64,000 bases of DNA from Jiella mangrovi (GTDB taxonomy: Bacteria > Pseudomonadota > Alphaproteobacteria > Rhizobiales > Rhizobiaceae). Below are positions 16,556 to 20,708 of the stretch, one piece after another. A model generated the notes under the pieces. The model did not search any database. It was given only the letters and a program-made list of their open reading frames with translations, and was not told the DNA's origin. Position 1 is the stretch's first letter, and every line of letters starts with the position of its first letter. The stretch spans positions 248,001-312,000 of the forward strand of contig NZ_JAGJCF010000002.1 in assembly GCF_017815135.1 (NCBI RefSeq). Reading direction: 5' to 3'. A program made the translations under genes and the position numbers.

Positions 16556-17926
16556 TCAGGCGCTGGCCGTTTCGCCCGACGCCGTCTCGGCTTCGTCCTC
16601 GGCCATCAGCTCTTCCTTCGTCACCGTCTTGTCGGTGACGTCGGCCTCGGTGAGCAGATGGTCGACCACCTTCTCCTCGTAGAGCGGCGCACGGATGCTC
16701 TGGATCGCCTCGGGGTTCTCCTGGAACATCTTGAGGATTTCCTGCTCCTGACCCGGATAGCGGCGCATCTGCTCGAACAGCGCACGCTGCAGCTCTTCCT
16801 CGCCGACCTGGACCCCGGCCTTCTCGCCGATTTCCGAAAGCACCAGCCCGAGACGGACGCGGCGCTCGGCAAGACGGCGATATTCCTCGCGCGCCTTCTC
16901 CTCCGTCGTGTCCTCGTCCTCGAAGGTCTTGCCGTTCTCGGTCAGCTCGCGCTGGACCTGGTTCCAGATGTTGTCGAACTCGGCCTCGACGAGCTTGCCC
17001 GGCAGCTCGAAGTCGTACTGCTTGTCGAGAGCGTCGAGGAGCTGACGCTTGACCTTCTGGCGGGTCGCCATGCCGTACTGGCTCTGGATCTGGTCGCGAA
17101 CGACCTCGTTCAGCTTTTCAAGCGATTCGAGGCCGAGCTTCTTGGCCATCTCGTCGTCGATCGCGGTCTCGGTCGGAGCCTGGACGGTCTTGACCTTGAC
17201 GTCGAAGGTCGCGGCTTTGCCGGCGAGGTGCTCGGCACCGTAGTTTTCCGGGAACGTCACCTCGACGGTCTTGTCGGAGCCCTTCTCGACCCCGATCAGC
17301 TGCTCCTCGAAGCCCGGAATGAAGCGGCCGGAGCCGATCACCAGCTCGGAATCCTCGGCCGAACCGCCCTCGAAGGCCTCGCCGTCGATCTTGCCGACGA
17401 AATCGACGATGACCTTGTCGCCCTTCTCCGCTGCGCCGTCCTTGTCCTCGTAGGTCCGGGCGTTCTCGGCGATCCGCTCGACCTGCTCGGCGACTTCCTC
17501 GTCGGAAACCTCGACGATCGGACGCTCGATCTTGATGCCGCTCGAATCCTTCACTTCGAAATCGGGCAGGGTCTCGTAGGAGAGCGTGAACTTGAAATCG
17601 GTCTCGCCGTTCAGAACCTTCTCGGCCTCGCCCTCGTCCTCGGTCATGCCGATCTCGGGGCGCATGGCCGCGCGTTCCTTGCGATCGGCAATGACGGAGC
17701 CCGGCGTCTCGTTCAGGATCTGATTGACGATCTCCGCCATCATCGACTTGCCGTACATCTTGCGCAGATGCGAGACGGGCACCTTGCCGGGACGGAAACC
17801 CTTCAGCTGCACCTTGTCCTTGGCCTCGAAGAGCCGGGTCTGAAGGCGCGCCTCAAGGTCCGAGGCGGGAACGACGATCTCGATCTCGCGCGTCAGGCCC
17901 TCGGCCTTGGTCTCCGTAACCTGCAT
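16556..17926 (-). CDS. tig: Trigger factor, ribosome-bound chaperone and peptidyl-prolyl isomerase
   Basis: A 456-residue trigger factor that docks at the ribosomal exit tunnel and shields nascent chains. The N-terminal ribosome-binding domain contains the signature loop GFRPGKVP (43-50). The FKBP-like isomerase domain spans about 155-245 and includes [18 protein letters not shown] and [13 protein letters not shown]. The C-terminal helical arms follow. The tail is Glu/Ala/Thr-rich and acidic, as in rhizobial homologues. The start is ATG 17926. It lies beside tRNA-Leu(UAG), an arrangement often seen in rhizobia, and near trmFO. Confidence 0.97.
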
Positions 17927-18015: not shown

Positions 18016-18100
18016 TGGTGCGGGTGGAGGGACTTGAACCCCCAAGCCTCTCGGCGCTTGGACCTAAACCAAGTGCGTCTGCCAATTCCGCCACACCCGC
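18016..18100 (-). tRNA. tRNA-Leu (anticodon UAG)
   Basis: An 85-base class II tRNA. The acceptor stem GCGGGTG pairs with CACCCGC, followed by A and an encoded CCA. The D arm lies around GTGGCGGAATTGGCAGAC, the anticodon arm is ACTTGG-TTTAGGT-CCAAG with anticodon TAG, a long variable arm (CGCCGAGAGGC) follows, and the T arm has GGTTCAAGTCC. It reads CUN leucine codons, mainly CUA and CUG. Confidence 0.97.
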
Positions 18101-18507
18101 ACGGCGCGCCGGCGACGGACGTTGCGAAGCGCGCGCCTCTATATCACCGCGAATTCCACCACGAAAGGGCAAAACCGGACGTTTTCGCGGCGGAACGCGT
18201 TCGCGGCGTGAGGCGGCATCGCGGCGAGACCCTCCCGGTTTCATCCTGCGTTATGGGCGCAATAAGGCACTTTCGTTGACTTATGCCGAACGAGAGGCAT
18301 GTGAGATCTCTGAGCTTTTCCCGCCAAACCCCTGCCATCGCTCACAGATCGTTAACTTGTGTTGCATTGCACAATCCGCATTGCTGCCATGCAGTTCGGG
18401 CTCTAGCGGCGACCGGCGACCGGTCATAGATTGGGATCAACACGACGGGGCGAGTGACGAAACACTTCCCGCCGAACCCGGATTGAAGACTGAAAGGAGG
18501 TTCTCAG
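18101..18507. promoter_or_regulatory. Upstream region of the DUF1127 gene and small-RNA array; TGCA-rich sites
   Basis: About 400 bases between tRNA-Leu and the DUF1127 gene. It must hold the promoter for the array. A candidate CTTGTG (18356-18361), 17-base spacer and CATTGC box is only a weak match to alphaproteobacterial heat-shock-type promoters. TTGCATTGCA (18362-18371) and GCATTGCTGCCATGCAG (18378-18394) are TGCA-rich near-palindromes like those found upstream of other genes in the window. No other gene was found here. Confidence 0.45.
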
Positions 18508-18651
18508 ATGAACCTTGTTCGTTCCTACCAGAGCTGGCGCCGCTACCGCGAGACCGTCAACGAGCTCAACCGTCTTTCGCATCGCGAGCTGGCCGATCTC
18601 GGCATCGCTCGCACCGACATCCCGGCCGTCGCGCGCCGCACGGCCGTCTGA
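18508..18651 (+). CDS. DUF1127 small protein (CcaF1-like), head of the CCTCC small-RNA array
   Basis: A 47-residue basic protein with an Arg-rich helix (WRRYRETVNELNRL, about 10-23) and a DUF1127 core HRELADLGIARTDI (25-38). The start ATG 18508 is seven bases after AAAGGAGG, a perfect Shine-Dalgarno. DUF1127 proteins are small arginine-rich proteins. In Rhodobacter sphaeroides the DUF1127 protein CcaF1 (RSP_6037) is an RNA-binding protein co-transcribed with the sRNAs CcsR1-4 and affects their maturation. Here the gene is followed, without a terminator, by four RNAs of the same kind, so an equivalent role is likely. This protein is shorter than CcaF1 and consists essentially of the DUF1127 domain. 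Function is by analogy; the gene itself is well supported. Confidence 0.9.
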   Translation: MNLVRSYQSWRRYRETVNELNRLSHRELADLGIARTDIPAVARRTAV

Positions 18652-18666
18652 GCCAACGAAATCGCA

Positions 18667-18778
18667 GTTTCGCCGAAGCCCACCTCCTCCCGGGTCTAGG
18701 TGAAAAACGGTCTGCCAACCTCCTCCCAAATGCGGCAGACCATCCTTTGTCGCCCGCCGGTCCTCCCCCGGCGGGCGA
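18667..18778 (+). ncRNA. CcsR/cuckoo-like small RNA, copy 1
   Basis: First of four tandem RNA units. Hairpin 1 has the motif ACCTCCTCCC in its loop, closed either by GCCC/GGGT or by CACCT/AGGTG (18681-18702). Hairpin 2 is an 8-bp stem GGTCTGCC/GGCAGACC (18709-18716 with 18734-18741) around a 17-base loop containing CCTCCTCCC. Hairpin 3 is a perfect 10-bp stem CGCCCGCCGG/CCGGCGGGCG (18751-18777) with loop TCCTCCC. The loops match the anti-Shine-Dalgarno end of 16S rRNA. CcsR RNAs of Rhodobacter and related rhizobial RNAs share loops with CCUCCUCCC. The exact 5' and 3' ends are guesses. Confidence 0.82.
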
Positions 18779-18800
18779 ACAAGGGGATCAAAGTTTCAAG

Positions 18801-18910
18801 GTTTCACCGAAGCCCACCTCCTCCCGGGCCCAGGTGGAAAACGATCTGCCAACCTCCTCCCAACCGGCAGATCATCCTTTGTCGCCCGCCGGTCCTCCCC
18901 CGGCGGGCGA
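18801..18910 (+). ncRNA. CcsR/cuckoo-like small RNA, copy 2
   Basis: Second unit, offset by 134 bases from copy 1. Hairpin 1 at 18814-18837 (CCACCT/AGGTGG, or GCCC/GGGC around ACCTCCTCCC). Hairpin 2 has stem GATCTGCC/GGCAGATC (18843-18850 with 18866-18873). One G-C pair of copy 1 is replaced by A-T on both sides, a compensatory change that supports the fold. The loop is two bases shorter but keeps CCTCCTCCC. Hairpin 3 (18883-18909) is identical to copy 1. Confidence 0.82.
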
Positions 18911-18932
18911 ACAAGGGGACTAAAGTTTCAAG

Positions 18933-19044
18933 GTTTCGCCGAAGCCCACCTCCTCCCGGGCCTAGGTGGAAAACGGTCTGCCAACCTCCTCCCAAATGCG
19001 GCAGACCATCCATTGTCGCCCGCCGGTCCTCCCCCGGCGGGCGC
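18933..19044 (+). ncRNA. CcsR/cuckoo-like small RNA, copy 3
   Basis: Third unit, offset by 132 bases and almost identical to copy 1 (about three differences over the hairpin part). Hairpin 1 is at 18946-18969, hairpin 2 is GGTCTGCC/GGCAGACC (18975-19007), and hairpin 3 is CGCCCGCCGG/CCGGCGGGCG (19017-19043). Unlike copies 1 and 2, hairpin 3 is followed by CTTTTGG, so it may act as a partial terminator. Confidence 0.82.
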
Positions 19045-19068
19045 TTTTGGTAAAGACGAGTTTTCAGC

Positions 19069-19183
19069 CTTTCGCTAAGGGCCCACCTCCTCCCGGGTCC
19101 GAGCGGATAAGACCTGCAGATCCTCCTCCCAAATGCAGGTCAGACAAACGAAACCCGCCGGTCCTCCCCCGGCGGGTTTCGTC
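19069..19183 (+). ncRNA. CcsR/cuckoo-like small RNA, copy 4, with final terminator
   Basis: Most diverged unit. Hairpin 1 is GGGCCC/GGGTCC (19079-19100, one G-T wobble) closing the ten-base loop ACCTCCTCCC. Hairpin 2 is an 8-bp stem GACCTGCA/TGCAGGTC (19111-19118 with 19134-19141) unrelated in sequence to copies 1-3 but with the same loop motif. Hairpin 3 is a perfect 12-bp stem GAAACCCGCCGG/CCGGCGGGTTTC (19150-19180) with loop TCCTCCC, followed by a T-rich stretch; it looks like the transcription terminator of the whole array. Confidence 0.82.
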
Positions 19184-19286: not shown

Positions 19287-20708
19287 ATGTCGACAGAACC
19301 CATTCACGTCATCGGCGGCGGGCTCGCCGGATCGGAAGCGGCCTGGCAGATTGCCGAGGCCGGCATTCCCGTCATCCTCCACGAAATGCGTCCGGTGCGC
19401 GGCACCGAGGCCCACAAGACGGACGGTCTCGCCGAACTCGTCTGTTCCAACTCCTTCCGCTCCGACGATGCCACGGCCAACGCCGTCGGCGTCATCCATG
19501 CGGAAATGCGGCTCGCCGGATCGCTGATCATGGCGATGGCCGACCAGCATCAGGTTCCGGCCGGTGGCGCGCTCGCGGTGGATCGCGAGGGGTTTTCACA
19601 GGCGGTCACCCAGGCTCTCGCCGAGCATCCGCTGGTCACGCTCGAGCGCGGCGAGGTCGAGGGCCTGCCGCCGGAGGACTGGGGCACCAGCATCGTCGCA
19701 ACCGGCCCGCTCACCGCACCGTCGCTCGCCGAAGCGATCCGCGCGGCGACGGGCGCGGACGCGCTGGCCTTCTTCGATGCCATCGCGCCCATCGTCCATT
19801 TCGACTCGGTCGATCTCGACAAGGCCTGGTTCCAGTCGCGCTACGACAAGGTCGGCCCCGGCGGCACCGGCAAGGACTACATCAACTGTCCCCTCGACAA
19901 GGAAACCTACGAGCGCTTCGTCGCGGCCCTGATCGAGGGCGATCGCGCCGAGTTCAAGTCCTGGGAGGGCACGCCCTATTTCGACGGTTGCCTGCCGATC
20001 GAGGTGATGGCCGAGCGCGGCGCCGAGACGCTCCGCCACGGCCCGATGAAGCCGATGGGCCTCACCAATGCGCATCAGCCCGACATCAAGCCCTATGCCG
20101 TCGTCCAGCTGCGCCAGGACAATGCGCTCGGCACGCTCTACAACATGGTCGGCTTCCAGACGAAGCTGAAATACGGCGCGCAGGCGGAGATCTTCCGGAT
20201 AATTCCGGGCCTCGAAAACGCCGAGTTCGCGCGTCTCGGCGGCCTCCACCGCAACACCTATCTCAACTCCCCGGTCCTGCTCGACGGATCGCTTCGTCTC
20301 AAGGCCCGTCCGAATGTGCGCTTCGCCGGCCAGATCACCGGCTGCGAGGGCTATGTCGAATCGGCCGCGGTCGGGCTGATGGCAGGTCGCTTCACGGCCG
20401 CCGAGCGTCGCGGCGAGACGATCCTGCCCCCTCCCCAGACCACCGCCATGGGCGCGCTCATCGCGCACATCACCGGCGGTCACCTCGCCCATCAGGAGGA
20501 TGGCGGCAAGCGGTCCTTCCAGCCGATGAACGTCAATTTCGGCCTGTTCGCGCCGCTGGAGCCCGGCGCGATCGTCAAGCCGGAGGGTCAGAAGCGGTTT
20601 CGCGGCAAGGAAAAGGCGATCGCCAAGAAGAATGCGCTTTCCCGGCGCGCGCTCTCAGATTTTGCCGCCTGGCTCGCAGGATCAAGCCTTCGCGAGGCGG
20701 CCGAGTAG
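19287..20708 (+). CDS. trmFO: Methylenetetrahydrofolate--tRNA-(uracil-5-)-methyltransferase TrmFO
   Basis: A 473-residue FAD- and folate-dependent enzyme that makes 5-methyluridine at position 54 of tRNA, using methylene-THF as carbon donor. The N-terminal dinucleotide-binding motif [12 protein letters not shown] (10-21) is followed by [14 protein letters not shown] and the Cys-containing [12 protein letters not shown] (Cys53). A second conserved Cys is in [10 protein letters not shown]. The C-terminal [15 protein letters not shown] is the folate/tRNA end of the family. Length equals typical Gid/TrmFO. The start ATG 19287 lies 104 bases after the small-RNA array terminator. It converges with the DUF4153 gene (49-base gap). 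Confidence 0.97.

Follow-up and report, generated by a model that had tools for sequence, protein, structure and literature searches.

A DUF1127 gene and four tandem alpha-r14 small RNA units behind a predicted LsrB/VtlR box in Jiella mangrovi

The window, i.e., the whole 64-kb stretch of Jiella mangrovi DNA that was analysed, carries a small DUF1127 gene followed on its 3′ side by four tandem structured RNA units of about 120 nt each, repeated at a pitch of 132-137 nt. The features of the locus and its conserved neighbours are the following:

16556-17926, − strand: tig (trigger factor), conserved upstream neighbour
18019-18100, − strand: tRNA, conserved upstream neighbour
18368-18393, + strand: predicted LsrB/VtlR-type LysR box TGCACAATCCGCATTGCTGCCATGCA, an exact consensus match conserved in the genus
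18425-18431, + strand: predicted −10 element CATAGAT (in summary form CATANNTT), from a ten-congener alignment, with a predicted start at about 18440
18493-18500, + strand: Shine-Dalgarno sequence AAAGGAGG of the DUF1127 gene, 7 nt 5′ of the ATG
18497-18516, + strand: tentative hairpin GAGGUUC/GAACCUU covering Shine-Dalgarno and start codon
18508-18651, + strand: DUF1127 small arginine-rich protein, 47 aa (Pfam match and congener codon comparison)
18663-18783, + strand: ar14/CcsR-type small RNA unit 1, three hairpins with anti-Shine-Dalgarno loops, 58.4 bits to Rfam ar14
18797-18915, + strand: ar14/CcsR-type small RNA unit 2, 59.2 bits
18930-19049, + strand: ar14/CcsR-type small RNA unit 3, 61.9 bits
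19066-19184, + strand: ar14/CcsR-type small RNA unit 4, the last, diverged from units 1-3 and orthologous in six congeners, 69.5 bits
19148-19182, + strand: perfect 14-bp terminal hairpin found by folding (arms 19148-19161 and 19169-19182), candidate intrinsic terminator with a weak U tract
19287-20708, + strand: trmFO (GidA family), conserved downstream neighbour

The open reading frame at 18508-18651 matches Pfam DUF1127 (PF06568) with 55 bits against a cut-off of 23.3 (E = 6.7e-15). Codon differences between the window copy and eight congeneric copies fall mostly at third positions (for G009, 11 synonymous changes and 1 nonsynonymous change); therefore, we consider it a real gene under purifying selection. 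One congener, G001, has a frameshifted DUF1127 (L011:2116-2257) next to an intact five-unit array and promoter box. This frameshift could be a real loss or an assembly error; since the array is kept intact beside it, gene and array can come apart. The hairpin over the Shine-Dalgarno and start codon forms in congeners with a perfect Shine-Dalgarno and is lost or reduced in the two congeners without one. Folding of the whole DUF1127 mRNA leader gave z-scores that were not significant against shuffles. It is possible that the local hairpin works as a translation switch.

The array belongs to a known rhizobial type of regulator, the alpha-r14 family. Units 2, 3 and 4 pass the curated cut-off of the Rfam ar14 model (alpha-r14, RF02344; 58.8 bits) and unit 1 falls 0.4 bit under it. 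Spacings are 134/132/137 or 132/134/135 nt, depending on the anchor. At minimum energy, each unit folds into three hairpins whose loops hold the motif (z = −6.3, −5.9, −4.1 and −6.4 for units 1-4), and none of 200 shuffles was as stable as the real units. All eight CCTCCTCCC copies of the 64-kb window fall within the array, with 0.91 expected; together with four copies of TCCTCCC, seen as the shorter loop UCCUCCC of the third hairpin in each unit, they make up twelve CCUCC loops. A preliminary description, made from the letters of the window, had proposed a 47-residue DUF1127 gene with a perfect Shine-Dalgarno heading a CcsR/cuckoo-type RNA array of four units of 132-136 bp, each exposing CCTCC in three hairpins, twelve in total. 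The Pfam match, the Shine-Dalgarno and its distance, the folds and the motif counts agree with it, and the unit length it gave is essentially right. The covariance-model search matched ar14, the hairpins are conserved in relatives, and the gene order is like that of R. sphaeroides.

Covariation was assessed over 36 units drawn from the genus, the family and the order. At hairpins 2 and 3, 17 of the 18 tested pairs were altered on both sides; double-change cells numbered 82 in the real alignment versus 21.5 when shuffled and 8-37 in slid frames, and the covariation score was 0.405 versus 0.199 when shuffled and at most 0.148 in slid frames. RNAalifold on the 36-unit alignment recovered hairpin 3 and missed hairpins 1 and 2. 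These two were missed because they are misaligned, so hairpin 2 was named by hand and all three hairpins were tested in a loop-anchored check. There, 19, 20 and 10 distinct inner stems surround the fixed loops of the three hairpins, and pairing falls to about 0.5 when 3′ arms are re-dealt; the 100% pairing of real arms holds by construction and the re-dealt contrast alone counts. Support for hairpin 1 comes from this check and from single folds. Stems vary with compensation and loops stay constant.

The order tig(−), DUF1127 with its units, trmFO(+) is kept in nine congeners, one of whose genomes divides it over two contigs, and is also found in much of the family. Named congeners among the matching loci are Jiella, Aurantimonas and a Fulvimarina metagenome-assembled genome. 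In named genomes, the 80 DUF1127 genes closest to this one almost always have one or more units nearby, and trmFO usually lies no more than about 2 kb away. Arrays in the genus hold 2-6 units, with up to 18 loops in G004, which makes four copies a mid-range and not a special number. The preliminary description had singled out copy number and the three-loop design; besides the ordinary copy number, three loops are what defines alpha-r14 (PMC7143759, PMC10746234).

Internal units share 91% identity if they come from one genome and 78% if they come from different genomes. In six species, on the other hand, the last units are 86% identical to one another and 60% identical to the internal units of their own genomes; G002, G004, G005 and G008 end in a unit of the array type. 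This identity pattern indicates that internal units were amplified in tandem and homogenised beside an old terminal unit. The possibility of a CRISPR-like or mobile repeat was considered and rejected, since covariation, Rfam matches and conserved position account for the repeats.

Other arrangements exist in relatives. Aureimonas genomes carry dispersed cassettes of a DUF1127 gene plus a single ar14-like unit away from trmFO (L119-L125, L127, L133, L138), mostly without a full VtlR/LsrB box, and at least five such cassettes occur in A. ureilytica NS365. In two loci of other lineages, the DUF1127 genes themselves are repeated before trmFO, four in each (L045:1634-3161, from G031, and L130, from Hoeflea marina). 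In the former, ar14-like RNAs are interspersed among the DUF1127 repeats, and the amplified unit appears to be DUF1127 plus RNA.

Upstream of the gene, the predicted box is composed of an exact TGCA-N6-GCAT (18368-18381) overlapping an exact GCAT-N3-TG-N3-T (18378-18390). The former is the form of the LsrB site in the NfeR1 promoter (PMC10746234) and the latter is a known LsrB/VtlR site form (PMC7486931, PMC8844928); the box also resembles the Brucella VtlR motif, CAATGCAGCCATGCA (PMC12595884). At up to 3 mismatches, it occurs once in the 64-kb window, with 0.07 expected, and a 31-mer containing it, again with up to 3 mismatches, occurs once in its own genome. The upstream alignment of ten congeners has one strong block, TTGC-TTGCACAAT-CGCA-GC-GCCATGCA, followed by CTA and then CATANNTT; in the −10 region of these ten, CATA/TTA and then TT are conserved. 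Of 80 related loci, 61 have GCAT-N3-TG-N3-T between −170 and −80 when up to 1 mismatch is allowed, and 2 of 80 have the reversed pattern that served as control. Transcription is predicted to begin near 18440, just past CATAGAT, a position obtained by applying the spacing of NfeR1, where the LsrB site sits at −72 to −57 relative to the start (PMC10746234). A sigma-70 scan returned no consensus promoter. A search for CTTGAA-N14-CCATNT (up to 3 mismatches, + strand, 18190-18505), covering one spacing and not the RpoHII consensus, returned no match there, and the same one-spacing search gave many chance matches elsewhere in the window. The genome encodes an LsrB ortholog, a LysR protein, directly after trxB (L165:1209-2102). 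Its closest solved relative is 9HH1 (E = 1.9e-133), which is LsrB of Agrobacterium; in Rhizobiales, lsrB and trxB consistently form an operon (PMC11975290). Taken together, the DNA switch points to the redox-sensing activator LsrB/VtlR as its putative effector rather than to a heat-shock factor.

At the other end of the array, the last unit closes with the perfect 14-bp hairpin, followed by a U-poor tail (CGTCGTTTCGG). A terminator scan did not flag this hairpin (19148-19182); its call instead fell on hairpin 3 of unit 3 (19017-19043, tail CTTTTGG). The terminator-like character given to the last hairpin in the preliminary description is therefore plausible.

We hypothesize that LsrB/VtlR switches on one transcript that yields a short DUF1127 protein together with NfeR1-type anti-Shine-Dalgarno RNAs in a multi-dose array, and give this reading a probability of roughly three in four. 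The LysR-type activator would bind the box at 18368-18393 and launch a single transcript near 18440, which would be translated into the 47-aa protein. Cleavage of its 3′ part in the inter-unit linkers, by RNase E if the analogy holds, would release four RNAs of about 110-120 nt. By analogy with NfeR1, each RNA would use its three CCUCC(UCCC) anti-Shine-Dalgarno loops to pair with ribosome-binding sites of mRNAs and block translation, and tandem copies would serve as dose amplification. NfeR1 itself is activated by LsrB, has three redundant anti-Shine-Dalgarno loops and silences ntrB and transporter mRNAs (PMC10746234, PMC8844928). The partner of the DUF1127 protein could be RNA, as for CcaF1, or PhoR, as in Agrobacterium: short DUF1127 proteins of similar size bind PhoR in A. 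tumefaciens and can be replaced by CcaF1 (PMC12501420). Direct activation by VtlR is known for the small-protein gene atu1667 and for DUF1127 genes of Brucella (PMC7486931, PMC12595884). Against this reading stand the weak terminal U tract, the lack of a sigma-70 consensus, the short GGAGG match of the ntrB leader, the frameshifted DUF1127 beside an intact array in G001 and the description of NfeR1 of S. meliloti as its own transcription unit. A broader proposal, in which the one switch co-expresses the short protein and an amplified, gene-converted alpha-r14 array, and the redox activator sets RNA dose via species-specific copy number, seems to us evenly balanced between right and wrong.

Regarding silencing targets, the ntrB leader of this genome contains just a short GGAGG core match. 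A search for perfect GGGAGGAGG-N3-9-ATG on both strands gave 12 matches with no evident functional theme, one of them being another hairpin RNA locus.

Further hairpin RNAs are found in this genome. A second one (L005:1501-1617; G000:C12:160673-160789, − strand) has CCUCC loops and a terminal hairpin with a T-rich tail, and several congeners carry a VtlR-like GCATGGCTGCCATG box upstream of it (L052, L054, L057, L059); it scores 43.2 bits to ar14, under the cut-off, and no other Rfam family fits. A third RNA, about 10 kb from it (L006:1501-1649; G000:C12:170655-170803, − strand), has several CCUCC-type loops and an AbcR-like look, is conserved in congeners (L051, L055, L056, L058) and reaches no Rfam family cut-off. 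A possible hairpin RNA (L008:1501-1609; G000:C3:28171-28279, − strand) combines CCTCCC/CCTCCTCCC motifs with a hairpin that looks like a terminator and has a T-run, and scores just 18.7 bits to ar14.

The same architecture could be read as a functional equivalent of CcaF1-CcsR1-4: RpoH would drive the operon under heat and photo-oxidative stress, its RNAs would adjust C1 metabolism, and its DUF1127 protein would mature these RNAs. In R. sphaeroides, CcaF1 (DUF1127) is co-transcribed with CcsR1-4; it is an RNA-binding protein that matures the CcsR RNAs together with RNase E (PMC10253847, PMC8625941). Both loci have a DUF1127 gene and then four tandem CCUCC-loop RNAs. This arrangement is frequent in alphaproteobacteria and is named the CIN1 locus (PMC10253847). 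However, that operon is driven by an RpoHI/RpoHII promoter (PMC10253847) and its protein has 71 aa, whereas the conserved upstream element here is an LsrB/VtlR box and the protein is of the 47-aa short type; moreover, the units fit the rhizobial ar14 model, which finds few matches across the class (5 of 114 genomes, own genome counted). We consider this equivalence unlikely. The 'equivalent stress-response module' of the preliminary description holds for architecture, but its photo-oxidative and heat control is unsupported, the conserved upstream element being an exact match to LsrB/VtlR boxes. The shared four-copy number is probably a coincidence, because congeners carry 2-6 units.

Two further readings are less probable still. 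The array could be a cis-acting structured 3′ UTR, its anti-Shine-Dalgarno loops, along with the local Shine-Dalgarno hairpin, restraining DUF1127 translation and the freed RNAs doing little in trans. Loop 2 pairs with the DUF1127 Shine-Dalgarno with an energy of −13.0 kcal/mol, which ranks fifth in a comparison with 44 window genes, and the hairpin over Shine-Dalgarno and AUG exists in congeners with a perfect Shine-Dalgarno; yet most good Shine-Dalgarno sequences would pair alike, the leader as a whole folds no better than shuffles, the two congeners without a perfect Shine-Dalgarno keep the array, and NfeR1 works in trans in S. meliloti (PMC10746234). We give marginally less credence still to a sponge, where the repeated CCUCC loops would capture a protein or RNAs bearing GGAGG and would silence no particular mRNAs. 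The very high number of loops (12 here and as many as 18 in G004) and the within-genome homogenisation of units fit such a dose-dependent decoy, but the relative studied in most detail, NfeR1, uses its redundant loops to pair with specific mRNAs and silence them (PMC10746234).

This locus joins two literatures on one locus type, that of CcaF1-CcsR in Rhodobacter and that of NfeR1/LsrB and VtlR-DUF1127 in rhizobia, Agrobacterium and Brucella. Its conserved box and synteny make it possible to test directly if DUF1127 protein and alpha-r14 RNA are parts of one LsrB/VtlR regulatory unit, and close relatives, with their 2-6 units, provide a natural series in which small RNA gene dosage can readily be tested. 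For atu1667, the authors do not decide between action as a protein and action as an RNA (PMC7486931); if the layout recurs at VtlR DUF1127 targets of Brucella or Agrobacterium, such questions may resolve as 'both'.

Compared with NfeR1/Smr14C2 of S. meliloti, the type member of alpha-r14 (RF02344), the units share the covariance match, three hairpins, CCUCCUCCC loops, variable stems and an LsrB-type box. NfeR1 is, however, described in S. meliloti as its own transcription unit and not as a DUF1127 co-transcript, whereas four tandem copies 3′ of DUF1127 share one box here. In the Ensifer loci compared, units lie upstream of DUF1127 genes with box-like sequences of their own, versus downstream in this locus. 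The VtlR/LsrB regulon of Brucella and Agrobacterium (DUF1127 genes, AbcR, VrsA, atu1667) resembles the locus in having a small DUF1127 gene behind a matching VtlR box and the regulator beside trxB, but the published accounts compared do not connect its DUF1127 targets with alpha-r14 RNAs downstream. The alpha-r14 family, its three-loop design, the linkage of DUF1127 with small RNAs and VtlR control of DUF1127 genes were already known separately. What is new is one conserved, predicted LsrB/VtlR box before a syntenic DUF1127-(ar14)n operon whose copy number varies among close relatives.
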